The notes under the pieces: generated by a model | Seen by the model: only the letters and a program-made list of their open reading frames with translations | Databases searched by the model: none | Told to the model about the DNA's origin: nothing | Made by a program: the position numbers and the translations under genes | Part shown: positions 12,353-21,368 of the stretch, piece after piece | Position numbering within the stretch: the stretch's first letter is position 1 | Layout of the letters: the number at the start of each line of letters is the position of its first letter | From: Bacillota bacterium | GTDB taxonomy: Bacteria; Bacillota; Bacilli; Alicyclobacillales; SLC66 | DNA length: 33,719 nt | NCBI GenBank assembly: GCA_021846165.1 | Contig: JAJZCL010000008.1 | Coordinates: 1-33,719, forward strand | Direction of reading: 5' to 3'

Positions 12353-13501
12353 TTACTTTGCGTCGCGCAGCAGTTGACTGGCGATCACCATGCGCTGCAC
12401 CTCGTTGGTGCCTTCATAAATCTGCGTGATCTTAGCGTCGCGCATCATTCGCTCCACGGGGTAATCACGCGTGTAACCGTACCCGCCATGGATCTGCACC
12501 GCTTCCGTCGTCACCCGCATGGCCACGTCGGATGCCGTCATTTTTGCCATTGCCGACGCCTTGCCATACGGCAGGCCGTTATCTTCCAGCCAGGCGGCCT
12601 GGTACGTCAGCAAACGCGCCGTTTCAATCGCTGTCGCCATGTCGGCCAGTTTGAATTGGATCGCCTGAAATTCGGCGATCGGCTTGTTGAACTGCGTGCG
12701 GTTTTTGGCGTACTCAAGCGCCGCATCAAGCGCCCCCTGTGCGATGCCGAGCGCCTGCGCCGCGATGCCGTTGCGCCCGCCGTCCAGCGTCATCATGGCG
12801 ATCTTGAAACCTTGCCCGCGCTCGCCGAGAATGTTTTCTTTCGGCACCCGGCAGTCTTCAAAAATCAGTTCCACGGTCGGTGATGAACGGATACCCATCT
12901 TTTTTTCTTTTTTGCCAAAAGTAAAGCCTTCCATTCCTTTTTCCACGATAAAACCCGTAACGCCACGCGATTTTTGATCTGGATCGGTACTCGCAAAGAC
13001 CACATAGGTATCTGCCACGCCGCCGTTGGTGATGAACACCTTGCTGCCGTTCAAAATGAACGAGTCGCCGTCTTCCGTTGCCGTCGTACGCAAACTGGCC
13101 GCATCCGTTCCGGCGCTGGGTTCGGTCAAGCCATAAGCGCCAATTTGCGCACCTTCGGCAAGGGGTTTCAGGTACTTTAGCTTCTGTTCTTCATTCCCGA
13201 ACTTGTAAATCGGCCAGGAGGCGAGGGACAGGTGTGCGGACAGCGTCACGCCCGTTGAGGCACAAACTCGCGACAGTTCCTCGACCGCGATCACATAGCT
13301 TAAAAAATCCATTTCCGCGCCGCCGTACTTTTCCGGCCAAGGAATGCCGGTTAACCCGAGTGCGGCCATCTTGTCAAAGATCGTACGGTCAAAGCGCTCC
13401 TCTTCGTCGCGCTCCGCCGCGCTCGGCGCCACTTCCTTCAACGCGAAATCACGCACCACTTTGCGCAGCGCCTGCTGCTCGTCATTCAAAGTAAAATCCA
13501 T
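12353..13501 (-). CDS. acdA: Acyl-CoA dehydrogenase (AcdA-like)
   Basis: 382 aa; [91 protein letters not shown]; close to Bacillus AcdA. Confidence 0.93.
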
Positions 13502-13525
13502 GGCAGTTCCCCCTCGTCAGTTCCG

Positions 13526-14665
13526 TTATTGAGTCAACGCCTTAGCCACCACAATTCGCTGGATCTGGTTGGTACCTTCGTAAATTTGCGTCACTTTTGC
13601 GTCCCGCATAAACCGCTCGACCGGATACTCTTTCGTGTAGCCGTAGCCGCCCAAAAGCTGCACCGCATCCGTCGTCACCCGCATGGCCATATCGGTCGTG
13701 TACAGCTTGGCCATCGACGCTTCGAGCGTGCAGGGAAGGTCGCGCGCTCGAAGCGACACGGCGCGATAGGTCATCAGTCGCGCGGCCTCAATGCCTGTTG
13801 CCATATCGGCAAGCATCTCCTGGATCGCCTGAAATTCCGCGATCGGACGCCCGAATTGGCGCCGCTCCATCACGTAGGCGACCGCGGTGTCATAGGCAGC
13901 GCGAGCGATGCCAAGCGCCTGCGCAGCGATGCCAATGCGTCCGCCATCGAGTTGCGACATGGCAATGCGAAAGCCTTCGCCCTCTTCACCAAGCCGCTGG
14001 TTCACCGAAATCCGCATATCGTCAAACAAAAGCTGCGCGGTGGCCGAGCCGTTCAACCCCATTTTACGCTCCTTATGACCAATCACAAAACCCGGTGTTC
14101 CGCGCTCGACGAGAAAAGCGGTGATGCCGCGCGAACCTTTAGCCGGGTCGGTTTTCGCGAACACGTTGTAGACGTCCGCCTCACCGCCATTTGTAATGAA
14201 CACCTTGCTGCCATTTAGCACGTACGTGTCGCCGTCGCGCACCGCGCGCGTTTGAATCCCTTTCGCATCCGACCCGGCACCGGGCTCAGTCAACGCAAAA
14301 GCGCCGATCATTTCCCCTGTGGCTAATTTCGCCACATACTTCTCGCGTTGTTCTGGCGTACCGAAGTGGAGAATGGGCAGTGTGCCCACCGACGTATGTA
14401 CAGCGAGAATTACGCCAACGGCGGCACTGGCATAGGAAATCTCTTCAATCGCAAGCATGTAGGACATGTAGTCGGCACCTACCCCCTCATACTCTTCGGG
14501 GATAGGCAGTCCAAGCAGACCAAGATCCGCCATTTTGCGAATGATGGCACGGGGGAACTCATCCTTGTCGTCAATACTCGCAGCGTGCGGAATGATCTCT
14601 TTTTTGGCAAAATCGCGCACCAGTTTGCGCATGGCGGTTTGTTCCTCTGTCAAGCGCAGATCCAT
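13526..14665 (-). CDS. Acyl-CoA dehydrogenase (second paralogue, butyryl-CoA dehydrogenase-like)
   Basis: MDLRLTEEQTAMRKLVRDFAKKEI…, [54 protein letters not shown]; start at internal ATG 14665 preferred over the track start at 14686. Confidence 0.92.
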   Translation of the reverse strand: MDLRLTEEQTAMRKLVRDFAKKEIIPHAASIDDKDEFPRAIIRKMADLGLLGLPIPEEYEGVGADYMSYMLAIEEISYASAAVGVILAVHTSVGTLPILHFGTPEQREKYVAKLATGEMIGAFALTEPGAGSDAKGIQTRAVRDGDTYVLNGSKVFITNGGEADVYNVFAKTDPAKGSRGITAFLVERGTPGFVIGHKERKMGLNGSATAQLLFDDMRISVNQRLGEEGEGFRIAMSQLDGGRIGIAAQALGIARAAYDTAVAYVMERRQFGRPIAEFQAIQEMLADMATGIEAARLMTYRAVSLRARDLPCTLEASMAKLYTTDMAMRVTTDAVQLLGGYGYTKEYPVERFMRDAKVTQIYEGTNQIQRIVVAKALTQ

Positions 14666-14686
14666 GGCCGCGCACCTCCTCACCAA

Positions 14687-15532
14687 TCAGGCGTATTGAT
14701 AAAACCCGCGCCCTGATTTTTTGCCCAAATACCCTGCCTCCACGTATTTGCGCAGCAGCGGACACGGACGGTACTTGGAATCGGCGAAGCCTTCGTAAAG
14801 TACCTCCATGATGTATAGACAGGTATCCAGCCCAATAAAATCCGCGAGTTGCAGCGGTCCCATCGGGTGACTCATGCCCAGCTTCATGATCTCGTCGATC
14901 GCTGCGGGCTCTGCGACGCCTTCATAAAGGCAGTAAATCGCCTCGTTGATCATTGGCATCAATATGCGGTTGGAGATAAACCCAGGAAAGTCCCGCACCG
15001 CGATGGGCGTTTTGCCCATGTCTTTTGCGAGTGTTTCTATCGCCTGATACGTCGCGTCAGAGGTCTGCAGTCCGCGGATCATCTCGACGAGCTTCATCAT
15101 CGGCACGGGGTTCATGAAGTGCATGCCCATCACTTGCTCAGGGCGACGAGTCACCGCCGCGAGTTCAGTAATCGGGAGCGACGAGGTATTGCTCGCCAGC
15201 AGCGCGTCCTGCGGCGCGATCTGATCCAGTTTGCGGAAAATCTCCTTCTTGACGTCCATTTTTTCAATGGCCGCTTCAATCACCACGTCCGCCTCGGCGG
15301 CCATGGCAAGATCGGTGGTTATGCGGATGCGGCCAAGTGTCGCTTCCACGTCTTCTTGCGTCAGTGTGCTTTTTTTGACGAACCGTTCCAAGCTCGTGCG
15401 AATCGTTTTCATCCCGCGCTCGGTAAACTCGTCCTTCACGTCCTGCATGATGACGGAAAAACCAGACTGCGCCGCCACCTGAACGATGCCGCTTCCCATT
15501 TGGCCGGCACCTATAATCATTAATTTTGTCAT
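14687..15532 (-). CDS. hbd: 3-hydroxybutyryl-CoA dehydrogenase
   Basis: 281 aa; [77 protein letters not shown]. Confidence 0.96.
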
Positions 15533-15536
15533 CGTA

Positions 15537-16724
15537 TCAAACGTCCTTTCCTGGCACTTCGATTAACACGGCGTCTCCTTGCGCGGCACCGCTGCAAATC
15601 GCAGCCACGCCAAGTCCACCGCCCCGTCGCCTGAGTTCGTAAATGAGCGTCATCAAGATCCGTGCGCCGCTGGCGCCGATCGGATGACCAAACGCGACCG
15701 CGCCGCCGTTCACGTTGACGAGTTCGGGGTCAATGCCGATCATCTGCATGCTGGTAAGCGCGACCGCCGCAAACGCCTCGTTAATCTCAAACAGCTTAAT
15801 ATCACTCGCGCTTTTGCCCGTCTTTGCAAACAGCTTTTGCATCGCAAGCGCCGGGGTAGTGGCGATGTACTTCGCCTCGGCTCCCGCCTCGGCGTGACCG
15901 TGCAGTATGGCGAGTACGTCACGACCCTCGCGCCGCGCCCGCTCTTCGCTCATGACGACGAGCGCCCCCGCGCCATCGTTGACGCCGGGCGCGTTGCCGG
16001 CCGTCACAGAACCAGTCGGATCAAATACTGGGCCTAGCCGTGCGAGTTGCTCTAGACTCGTGTCCTTACGCGGTGCCTCGTCGGCAGACACGACGGTGTC
16101 GCCTTTTCTGCCCTTCACCGTGACGGAAACGATTTCATCAGATAGACGGCCTTCCTCCATCGCCGCGATTGCACGCTTTTGTGAGCGTAGCGCCCACTCG
16201 TCCTGCGCCTCGCGAGTAATGCCGTACTCCCTGGCCACGGTTGAACCGTGAACGGCCATATGCACACCGTGAAAGGAACACATGAGCCCGTCACGCAGCA
16301 TCAGATCCTCCACCTTGCCGTCATTCATACGCAGGCCAAAGCGCGCACTCGCAAGCGCATATGGCGCGTTCGACATGCTCTCCATGCCGCCAGCGACGGC
16401 GATCTCGATGTCGCCCGCGCGAATCATCTGATCCGCGAGCGTGACGGCGCGAAGACCGGATGCGCAGACCTTGTTAATCGTTTCTGTTGCCGTTTCCCAA
16501 GGGATGTCAGCCTTTCGTGCGGCTTGCCGCGAGGGGATCTGCCCCGCTCCCGCCTGCAATACCATGCCCATGATCACTTCGTCGACTGCATCTGGCGCCA
16601 CTCCTGCTCTTTGCAACGCCTCGCGGATCACAACCCCGCCGAGTTCCACTGCGGGCAAACTAGCCAGCGCCCCACCAAACTTACCAAACGGCGTACGCGC
16701 CGCTCCGACGATCACACTTTTCAA
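15537..16724 (-). CDS. Acetyl-CoA C-acetyltransferase (thiolase)
   Basis: 395 aa; [12 protein letters not shown] active-site Cys, ELNEAFAA-type [50 protein letters not shown] start. Confidence 0.96.
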
Positions 16725-16936: not shown

Positions 16937-18928
16937 TCAGATCGCCTGCAGCAACAGCTCCGCCACATCGAACGTCAACACTTCCTCCTCGACGCCCTTC
17001 GCCTTCGTGCCGTCGATCATCATCGTCATGCAGTAAGGGCAGGCCGTCGCGATCGTCGTCACCCCTGTCGCCAGCGCCTGTTCCGTGCGCAAGACGTTGA
17101 TCCGCTGCTTGCCCGTTTCTTCCTTGAACATCGAGCCGCCGCCGGCCCCGCAGCACATGCTTCTGTTGCGCGTACGATCCATTTCCACCAGCTTCAGCCC
17201 TGGAATCCGAGACAGAATGTAACGCGGTGCGTCATACACATCGTTGTAGCGTCCCAGATAGCAGGAGTCGTGATACGTCACCGTGCGCTCCACGGCCTTT
17301 GTCGGTTGAATCTTACCCGCCTTCATCAGACCGGCCAAAAACTCCGTATGGTGAATGACCTCCGCCTCAAGACCGAAGTCCGGGTACTCTTTTTTGAAGT
17401 TGTTATATGCATGCGGATCGGTGGTGATGATTTTTTTGACCCCATACTCCTTAAACAGCTCCACGTTCGTTTGCACGAGTTCCTGATACAGAAATTCGTT
17501 GCCAAGACGCCTCGCCGTGTCGCCGTCGCTCTCTTCTTCTGTCCCCAGCACGGCAAAGTCCACCCCTGCCTGCCGCAAAAGCTCCACAAACGCCCGCGCG
17601 ATCTTCTGATTGCGCACATCAAACGACGCCGCTGACCCCACATAGTACAGGTACTCCACCTTGCCTTCGACATCCGCCATCGTTTTTACATCAAGGCCAT
17701 CCGCCCACTCCAGCCGCGCCGAACGCGGGCGCCCCCACTCGTTCGACTGCCGCTCTAGGCCTGTAAACGCGCGATTGATCTCACCCGACGCCTTGCCCTC
17801 CGTCAACACGAGGTTGCGGCGCAAATCGATGATCAGGCTGACGTGTTCATTCCACACTGGACAGGCTTCTTCGCAGGCACGGCAGGTCGTGCAGGCCCAA
17901 ATCTCGTTCTCCGTGTACACCTCACCGACCAGCGACGGCAACTCTACTTCTTCCAAGGTTTCGGCGCCCGCCGCTTTTGCCATATTTTGCCGCTTGACCA
18001 GACTCGGCCCCGCCTCCACCAACGCTTCTTTCATTTTCAGAATCAGATACTTGGGCGACAAGTCTGTGCCGCTCATCATTGCGGGGCAGTTGACGTGACA
18101 GCGCCCGCACTCCGTACACGCAAACCCATCGAGCAACTGCTTCCACGTAAATTGCGTCACTTTTGCGACGCCAAACTCCTCCACGCTTTCGTCCGACAAA
18201 TCCAGGGTTTTGATCTTGCCGACGGGGCCCAAATTGCGGTAATACGAATTCACCATCGCCCCGATCATGTGCATGTGCTTCGAGCGTGGAATCAACACAA
18301 GAAACCCGAAGATGGAAAGCGTGTGCGCCCAAAACAACACTTGAATCCAAACGCTCGCCACGACCGGACTGACGCCAAAAAAGAGATGGCCGAACAGGTT
18401 CGACATCGGCGCCGCCATGCCTGGCATCACGCCCGTACGCGCCGCATCAAGGCCCCCGACGAGGAACGTCGTCGTGACGATGACAAAGATCAAAAACAGG
18501 ATAAATCCCGCTTCAAACGTCGGCTCAATCCGAATCGGCCGCACAATGTAGCGACGGATCAGCGCGACCACCACGGCAATCATCACAAACACCGCCGCCC
18601 ACTCCTGCAAGAACGTGAACCAGGGTGCCGTAAAACCTGGAATGTGCGACCCCGACAAGCCAAACGCGAAAAAGTCGAGTTCGCCAAACGCCAACACAAT
18701 GAAGCCCCAGAATATAAAAGAGTGACCGATTCCCGCAGGTTCCGCCAACACCTTAGCCTGTCCGAGTACATACTTTACAAAACTGCGGACGCGCAGATTT
18801 TTGGGTTCACTGCGGTCTTCCGCCTGACCCAATCTCACAAACTGATAGCGGCTGTATACCCCCGACCCGAATCCAGACAGCGCTGCGATCGCCAACACGA
18901 TAAATAGGATGAGATTTAAAAAGTACAC
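16937..18928 (-). CDS. fadF: Membrane-anchored iron-sulfur oxidoreductase, FadF/HdrD-like
   Basis: 663 aa; N-terminal NarI-like membrane segments, two 4Fe-4S motifs (CTECGRCHVNCP, CTTCRACEEACP), two CCG domains (CYLGRYNDVYDAPR…CCGAGGG); adjacent to acdA-rpoE as in Bacillus ywjF (fadF). Confidence 0.88.
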   Translation of the reverse strand: MYFLNLILFIVLAIAALSGFGSGVYSRYQFVRLGQAEDRSEPKNLRVRSFVKYVLGQAKVLAEPAGIGHSFIFWGFIVLAFGELDFFAFGLSGSHIPGFTAPWFTFLQEWAAVFVMIAVVVALIRRYIVRPIRIEPTFEAGFILFLIFVIVTTTFLVGGLDAARTGVMPGMAAPMSNLFGHLFFGVSPVVASVWIQVLFWAHTLSIFGFLVLIPRSKHMHMIGAMVNSYYRNLGPVGKIKTLDLSDESVEEFGVAKVTQFTWKQLLDGFACTECGRCHVNCPAMMSGTDLSPKYLILKMKEALVEAGPSLVKRQNMAKAAGAETLEEVELPSLVGEVYTENEIWACTTCRACEEACPVWNEHVSLIIDLRRNLVLTEGKASGEINRAFTGLERQSNEWGRPRSARLEWADGLDVKTMADVEGKVEYLYYVGSAASFDVRNQKIARAFVELLRQAGVDFAVLGTEEESDGDTARRLGNEFLYQELVQTNVELFKEYGVKKIITTDPHAYNNFKKEYPDFGLEAEVIHHTEFLAGLMKAGKIQPTKAVERTVTYHDSCYLGRYNDVYDAPRYILSRIPGLKLVEMDRTRNRSMCCGAGGGSMFKEETGKQRINVLRTEQALATGVTTIATACPYCMTMMIDGTKAKGVEEEVLTFDVAELLLQAI

Positions 18929-19030: not shown

Positions 19031-19062
19031 ATGAAAAATCCGTGAACATCGTTCACGGACGT
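19031..19062 (-). terminator. Intrinsic terminator of the chemoreceptor-cytochrome gene
   Basis: Minus strand CCGTGAAC-GAT-GTTCACGG followed by ATTTTTCAT, immediately 3' of the stop at 19072. Confidence 0.8.
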
Positions 19063-19071
19063 ATTTTTAAT

Positions 19072-21228
19072 TTATTTTTGAGTTTGTTGAACCAGCCAAT
19101 TTGCCACTGTCTGAATATCGCTGGAGTTTGTCAAGCCTCCGCCGGGCGGCATCACCGTTCCGCCAGTCTTGATCTTATCTGCGATCTGGCTCAGACTTAA
19201 CCTGTTGCCAATGCCAAGCAGCGCCGGTCCGACACTTCCCTGCAGGCTTTGTCCGTGGCACCCTGAGCAATCCTGCATGAAAATTTGGTATCCTGGCATG
19301 TTGACGTCGAGTATGCCGTTTTTGGAAACACTCGCTTGCTGCGACGGCGCTGGATTGGTGATTGCCGTATGCGATTTGCTGAAATATTGCAGCGAAATCC
19401 CGGTTCCGCCTCCGACCACCACGACCACCACCGCGGCAATCGCCCATAACGCGCGTCTTGACAGCGGTTTGCGCCCCCCGCCCCCTTGCTCTGCGATTCC
19501 CCCCACTCGCCGCGCATCTTGCGTCATTTCCGATTGATTCATCTTAAAGTGGGAGACCAGTTCGTTCAGCCCCATCGACAAATTGCTCGTCCCTTGCGCC
19601 GTGGTCGCAAGGTTCTCCATCACACGCTCAATCTCGTCCGTCGTTTGTCTGACGCGCTCTGCGCTCTCCGCCGTTTCGGCCACCTTACCCGCCACCCTGC
19701 GCACTGCCTCCATCATCTCTTCTGAGCGGCTAACTTCAGCATTCGCAACCTCGGCAATTTTGCCCACTTCACCCGCAGTGTTGTTAACAGCCACAATGAT
19801 TTGCTTGAGCGACTCGCCGGATTCATTGGCCATCGTCACGCCCGCTTCCACCGCTTGCATGCTTTCCCGCGAAGACAGCGCGCTGGCTTCCGTGATGCTG
19901 AGGATTTCGTTGAGGATAGAACTGACCTGTGCCGACTCTGCGCGCGTCTGTTCCGCCAGTTGTCGCACTTCTTCCGCCACCACCGCAAATCCGCGCCCAG
20001 CCTCTCCCGCTCGCGCGGCTTCAATCGACGCATTCAAGGCGAGCAGGTTGGTTTGTTCCGCAATTTCCTGAATTGTTCCAGCGATGGTTTCCACCTGATT
20101 GGAGTACTGTTGGAGTTCCGTCATGCGCTTTTCTGTTTCTTGCGACTTGCTCCGAATCTCCTGAATATTCTCCAGTGTTCGTCCAATCGTCGCTTGACCA
20201 ATCCGCGCAACCCGCTCCGCCTCTTCGGCGAATTGTCGGGTGGTGGTGATCGATGTTTGCGCAGTTCGCACCAGTTTGACCAGTTCCTCAAGCGCGCGCG
20301 TTGTCATTCCGATATCTTTTTCCTCGTCCAATGCGTTCTGCGCGGTGCTTTGCATTTGCCTGGCAATTTCCGATACTGACGCCGCCGCTTCCTGAATGGA
20401 CGAGGCGTTCTCTTCCGACGCCGCATTGAGATCCTTCGCGCTGTGCCTGATTCCTTCAAGCAGTTCGCGCAAATGAGCGACCATCTGGTTGGTGGCGGCC
20501 ATCGTCTCGCCAATTTCGTCGCCTGAGGTCACGCGCAGTTCTTCCACACCCAAATACCCGGCCGCGACTTCTTCCGACACGCTCATCAGTTTACGTAACG
20601 AGTTGGCAAACTGGTTGGAGTACAGGTAGGCGATCACCAGGCCAAGCAGGATGACCACAATGGAGATCGCCCACTCGATAATGTTGGTGACGGTGTCATA
20701 CGCACTCACGCGCTTGTTCAAACTGTTCTCCGCCGTTTTCTTGCTTTGCTGATACTTGACCAGTGGCTCGATCATCGTTTGGTAAGGCACATTCGTGTAC
20801 TGTTCCTGCGCGATGCGCAGGTTCCTGCTCTTGATCAGTTGGAATGCGCTTGCATTCCCGTTCAGGTAAGAGCCGAAATTGCTGCGAAACTGATTCAGTA
20901 GCCCCGCATTCGCGGCGTTGGTGGTCAGATTGTTGAGTTGAATCCATTCGCGGTTGATTTTCGCCACATACTGATGGTATTCATTTAGCATCGCTTGCTG
21001 CTTGCTCGGCGGCGCGAGCAGGTACCACGCGCCATCGTCGTTCATCTGACGCACTTCGCTGTCGATGGTCTGTGCGAGCAGCACTTCTTGGTTGTTGGTC
21101 ATCATCTCGTTGTTTAGCGTGTTGATCTGGGAGCGAAAGTAGCCGCTTAGAATGCTGGATATCAGCACCAGTACAAGGATGATCGAAAAACTCAACATCA
21201 GTTTGGCACGTATCGACAAGCCCTTCAT
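19072..21228 (-). CDS. Methyl-accepting chemotaxis protein fused to a C-terminal transmembrane helix and c-type cytochrome domain
   Basis: 718 aa: N-terminal TM, 4HB-like sensor, second TM ([22 protein letters not shown]), HAMP, MCP signalling hairpin ([40 protein letters not shown]), then [31 protein letters not shown] (third TM) and [22 protein letters not shown]…[12 protein letters not shown]…IQTVANWL (class I cytochrome c). Confidence 0.92.
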
Positions 21229-21368
21229 GTATTCAATGACTCCTTTGTCGTAAAGTTTTTATAACCGATCATAGAAACTTCTCATAATATACTTGAAATC
21301 ATGACGGTCTGCATCAAGCGCTTTTATCTCAAATTATAATCGATGTTTTTTTATTTTTGTCTACAATA

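Follow-up and report, generated by a model that had tools for sequence, protein, structure and literature searches.

Can a bacterial chemoreceptor carry a cytochrome c behind its cytoplasmic signalling domain and, if so, what would the haem do there? The question is raised by a gene in a 33,719-nucleotide stretch of DNA from an uncultivated member of the Bacillota (the window, by which we mean the whole stretch that was analysed), in which positions 19072-21228 on the reverse strand form a single uninterrupted ORF of 718 aa with an ATG start, as read from the sequence and its ORFs. The features of the locus are listed here from the 5' to the 3' end of the gene, with identities referring to a comparison with an ortholog from a second species.

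21240-21246, (-): Shine-Dalgarno sequence AAAGGAG 5' of the ATG, by sequence reading; AAAGGAG also lies 5' of the ortholog's ATG
19072-21228, (-): mcp-cytochrome c fusion gene, 718 aa, ATG start; intact 716-aa ortholog at L044:3240-5390
21145-21201, (-): TM1, residues 10-28, by hydropathy; 74% identity
20683-21144, (-): extracytoplasmic four-helix-bundle (4HB) sensor, residues 29-182, by Pfam 4HB_MCP_1 and TarH
20626-20682, (-): TM2, residues 183-201, by hydropathy; 79% identity
20464-20619, (-): HAMP, residues 204-255, sub-threshold (Pfam HAMP, 20.7 bits against a cut-off of 25)
19690-20232, (-): core of the MCP signalling domain, residues 333-513, by Pfam MCPsignal (E 5e-36); closest solved structure 2ch7
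19939-20106, (-): hairpin tip region, residues 375-430; 95% identity between the two orthologs
19450-19539, (-): cytoplasmic Gly-rich linker and basic RKPLSRR, residues 564-593; 10% identity over residues 564-588, with in-frame gaps
19390-19449, (-): TM3, residues 594-613, by hydropathy; 65% identity, GGGTGxS invariant in both orthologs
19318-19389, (-): outer polar linker, residues 614-637; 17% identity
19075-19317, (-): class I cytochrome c domain, residues 638-718, by Pfam Cytochrome_CBB3, NCBIfam c550/c551 and PDB 1b7v; lowest dN of the protein
19255-19269, (-): CSGCH haem c attachment motif, residues 654-658, from the sequence
19150-19152, (-): Met693 (VMPPGGG), candidate distal axial ligand; matched by a Met of 1b7v in the alignment and shared by the anchored and QcrC relatives
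19038-19060, (-): terminator-like hairpin directly after the stop codon, 10 pairs and a T-run; weak, as shuffled sequences give about as many

The N-terminal part of the protein has the make-up of an MCP: a sensor lies between TM1 and TM2 (4HB_MCP_1 at residues 4-146, E 6e-11), HAMP follows in the expected place between TM2 and the signalling domain, albeit below the Pfam cut-off, and the MCPsignal match, whose closest solved structure is itself a methyl-accepting chemotaxis protein, contains a conserved tip. The two arms of the hairpin are alike in length (end of HAMP at 255, tip at about 399-408, canonical end at about 563), so the C-terminal end of the hairpin should sit near the membrane, with TM3 within reach of a linker of about 30 residues. 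Hydropathy gives exactly three TM segments (residues 10-28, 183-201 and about 589-613), the third of them lying past the signalling domain and ahead of the cytochrome domain. The latter is matched by Cytochrome_CBB3 at residues 645-712 (E 1e-9, above its cut-off) and follows the class I pattern, with CSGCH and then, 35 residues past the haem His, Met693 in the C-terminal half. The first-pass annotation had described one fused ORF with TM1, a 4HB-like sensor, TM2, HAMP and an MCP hairpin, followed by CSGCH and a candidate distal ligand, and all of this is borne out; its third helix, placed at about 19381-19455, is also present, within the slightly narrower limits listed above.

Is the fusion genuine? 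The second species of the genus, represented by an independent MAG (G002; JAJZCW01, 'Bacillota bacterium JA4.bin15'), encodes the intact ortholog, which is 64% identical over its full length, and a third genome of the genus (G003) holds the N-terminal 336 residues of the receptor up to the end of a contig. A G-rich run (GGGGGCGGGGGG) upstream of TM3 is a plausible indel site, and a frameshift at about 19350-19520 that splits two genes had been considered from the start; the intact ortholog, with an in-frame linker of its own, shows that the reading frame is genuine, and a frameshift or an assembly chimera joining two genes is ruled out. As dS has reached saturation in nearly every region, conservation was compared by dN alone, without dN/dS. 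By this measure the cytochrome is the most conserved large domain of the protein (dN 0.165, 79-80% identity between the two orthologs), with values of 0.26 for the signalling part and about 1.0-1.2 for the linkers; the low identity of both junction linkers, each with in-frame gaps, stands against that of TM3. No start codon in the linker is conserved between the two orthologs, the window's genome having ATGs at codons 563 and 568. Since in-frame starts near the junction are not common to both, a separately translated, conserved cytochrome is unlikely, and on these sequences we reject it, although the window's genome alone may still use an internal start. From these observations, we conclude with great confidence that the fused gene is genuine and has been conserved.

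Upstream of the receptor, a gene for an HD-domain protein is kept in G002, with a sigma-54-activator-like ORF (by reading) in between, and the genes downstream differ between the window and G002. In the window, the gene just downstream of the fusion gene (16937-18928, reverse strand) encodes an Fe-S protein with CCG domains and a hydrophobic N-terminal part; adjoining it is a beta-oxidation-like cluster (12353-16724, reverse strand) of acyl-CoA dehydrogenases, a 3-hydroxyacyl-CoA dehydrogenase and a thiolase, by reading.

The full-length MCPs that we read in related genomes mostly end 155-161 residues past the hairpin tip, without a second module, whereas the fused receptors continue for 308-310 residues. 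Two related MCPs (L088, L093) have about 30 extra tail residues, with no hydrophobic segment, and small soluble MCPs end earlier. A profile of TM3 and the cytochrome domain was searched against all 59 genomes of the order, 400 of the class and 399 of the phylum, the last at a threshold of 1e-18; among the matches listed, a long open frame occurs only in the window's genome and G002, all other listed matches being frames of at most 334 aa. The class-level result applies to the matches listed, and the strict phylum threshold could miss weak or unrelated cytochrome fusions. A scan of public contigs with two short peptide patterns, which returned six loci, is a weak census. An architecture already common and described, as the first-pass annotation had envisaged it might prove, is thus not what we encountered: within this sample it is confined to one genus, and no description of an MCP-TM3-cytochrome c architecture was found in the open-access literature. 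The fusion is a real and apparently undescribed design.

Chemoreceptor fusions of another kind are present in relatives. In proteins of 837-979 aa, an N-terminal APC-type amino acid permease (PF13520) precedes HAMP and MCPsignal; two of these (L094 on G016:C24, and L087 on G002:C40, from the window's genus) were confirmed by Pfam, and one (L095 on G005:C70) was assigned solely from a similar arrangement of helices. We found no relevant description of a transporter-chemoreceptor fusion in the open-access literature.

What kind of cytochrome has been joined to the receptor? The nearest NCBIfam families are Bacillus cytochrome c551 and c550, at 62 and 62 bits against cut-offs of 125 and 118; among solved structures, a c553 (1b7v) is closest in sequence. 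A predicted model of the domain, of low confidence (pLDDT 58), has its best fold matches in c6 and c553 (E 0.008-0.02); the matches to sequence profiles are clear. Within the order, the domain is most closely related to solo cytochromes (175-232 aa, with a single N-terminal anchor) and to QcrC proteins of 256-264 aa, and both kinds are also encoded in the window's genome. Visualizing the relatedness of the domains as a tree, we observed that the two fused domains are united (100/97) and lie among the solo anchored and QcrC cytochromes of the same family, the tree assigning their origin to neither the solo nor the QcrC branch. These sequence relationships suggest that the tail is a captured local domain, from either an anchored carrier or a bc-type cytochrome. 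In three other genomes (L062, L063 and L065, in G001, G002 and G003), the solo anchored gene is divergent from an adjoining ORF of 280-288 aa, which in G001 and G002 is a small soluble MCP; in the window's genome (L060) the genes next to the solo gene are different ones.

Because the TM count is odd and c-haem is attached on the outer face of the membrane, the cytochrome domain is predicted to lie on the outer side, which supports the first-pass placement of the cytochrome outside by the positive-inside rule. The full-length structure prediction is poor (pLDDT 51), and neither topology nor packing rests on it. The window contains no che genes, as had been noted, yet this holds only locally, for the genome has two matches to the CheA dimerisation domain elsewhere. 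It also has a Ccm (system I) haem c maturation operon with CcmA, B, C, F, E and H (G000:C103; L099, 5000-14000). A search of five genomes of the family did not find ResB, of system II, and maturation by system II is rejected, the Ccm genes being present instead. Maturation of haem c by Ccm is probably unusual for Bacillota. Flagellin and COX1 were not found in the window's genome, which is 83% complete; both were found in siblings.

The usual account of energy taxis invokes receptors that give an indirect reading of FAD, quinones or gas-binding haem. We hypothesize that here the third membrane helix exports a CccA-like (c550-type) cytochrome c domain beside the receptor's own four-helix-bundle sensor, where it would serve as a tethered redox antenna whose haem exchanges electrons with the electron-transport chain of the cell or with an external donor. 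Its redox state would be read by lateral contact, the cytochrome and TM3 lying against the sensor and the TM1/TM2 bundle, and the read-out would bias CheA, giving redox or energy taxis; the conserved GGGTGxS in TM3 would suit the packing of this helix with TM1 and TM2. Being rich in Gly and hardly conserved, the cytoplasmic linker speaks for a tether and against rigid helical transmission through TM3. The canonical hairpin tip, the His/Met pattern, the kinship to bc-complex and anchored cytochromes and the presence of CheA and Ccm genes are all consistent with a redox reading; the failure to find flagellin and COX1 in this 83%-complete genome speaks against it. We stress that we infer the topology, haem loading, electron partner, signal and coupling direction, and we put at about even the chance that the receptor has a redox module tethered on the outside and used in redox or energy taxis. 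Of the inputs proposed earlier, redox state or electron flow is the most fitting, given that the domain's nearest families are the electron carriers c550/c551 and that it has a candidate Met ligand; sensing of O2 or NO is less likely. Our more specific suggestion, that the input is respiratory electron flow, sampled outside by a tethered bc-complex-type cytochrome and reported to the kinase through TM3 and the neighbouring sensor, is tentative. If it is true, a carrier-type cytochrome c on a receptor would report electron flow directly, wiring electron transport to chemotaxis; with this compact design, cells could navigate according to the state of their electron transport, and an MCP could accept a second external module at its C-terminal end.

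With the 4HB domain retained, the receptor may not take its input from the cytochrome, which could instead be an ordinary membrane-anchored electron carrier that the MCP part places in polar receptor arrays or merely accompanies, the two ends of the protein working independently. The likeness to c550/c551 carriers, the nearly unconserved, tether-like linkers and the solo anchored and QcrC relatives in the same genome would all agree with this. The MCP half, however, resembles a working receptor, with its full sensor and its canonical, 95%-conserved tip, and the genome already has a dedicated anchored carrier; we therefore regard two independent ends as unlikely. The ends might also be parted after synthesis, if TM3 acted as an internal signal peptide and signal peptidase cut near its outer end to yield a free MCP and a free cytochrome. 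In favour of this, TM3 combines a basic n-region and a hydrophobic core with small residues towards its outer end, where both orthologs have G-x-S, but an AxA motif is not clear, the helix that anchors the solo relatives looks uncleaved, and TM3 is 65% conserved, near the values for TM1 and TM2, so that cleavage seems distinctly improbable to us.

We give little credence to a direct gas sensor whose haem binds O2 or NO: c-haem sensors of Geobacter release the Met on oxidation and bind NO (PMC8396549), but the domain here is class I and c550/c551-like, with a candidate His/Met pair that is conserved across anchored carriers and QcrC and would normally be six-coordinate. A recent, near-neutral read-through fusion of mcp with a downstream cytochrome gene, without joint function, or else an assembly or frameshift artefact, would accord with the G-rich run at the junction and with the restriction of the fusion to one genus among the genomes sampled. 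This explanation is already largely refuted, for an independent MAG encodes the ortholog with a different in-frame linker, the cytochrome is under strong constraint, and no linker start codon is conserved between the two orthologs; we consider it very unlikely.

The tethered redox module that we favour can be set beside several known systems. For redox sensing, the c-haem chemoreceptors of Geobacter and DcrA offer a precedent (PMC8396549). DcrH-type chemoreceptors resemble the fused receptor in having a redox/O2-related module, a C-terminal hemerythrin, after the MCP signalling domain (PMC13401364); that domain is di-iron rather than haem, and no TM helix is described in between, whereas the module of the fused receptor would be exported. 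Bacillus cytochromes c550/c551 (CccA/CccB) and c553 provide the best family and structure matches, and the family's solo relatives have an anchored single-TM plan, but c550, c551 and c553 are stand-alone carriers and, at 59-62 bits, the fused domain falls well short of the NCBIfam cut-offs of 118-125 bits. QcrC, the cytochrome c subunit of the bc complex, falls into one group with the fused domain and the family's solo cytochromes, and differs in having its own membrane part and operon. Closest in kind are Geobacter GSU0582 and GSU0935 and Desulfovibrio DcrA, MCPs with extracytoplasmic covalent haem c that are proposed redox sensors (PMC8396549) and whose mode of action our receptor may share. 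In those proteins the haem is in a periplasmic (PAS-like) sensor domain (PMC8396549); in the fused receptor CXXCH occurs at residues 654-658 only, so the N-terminal 4HB sensor is haem-less and the class I cytochrome c stands at the C-terminus, behind TM3. The receptor would thus be a variant of the c-haem chemoreceptors with its haem at the end opposite to that of the described cases.
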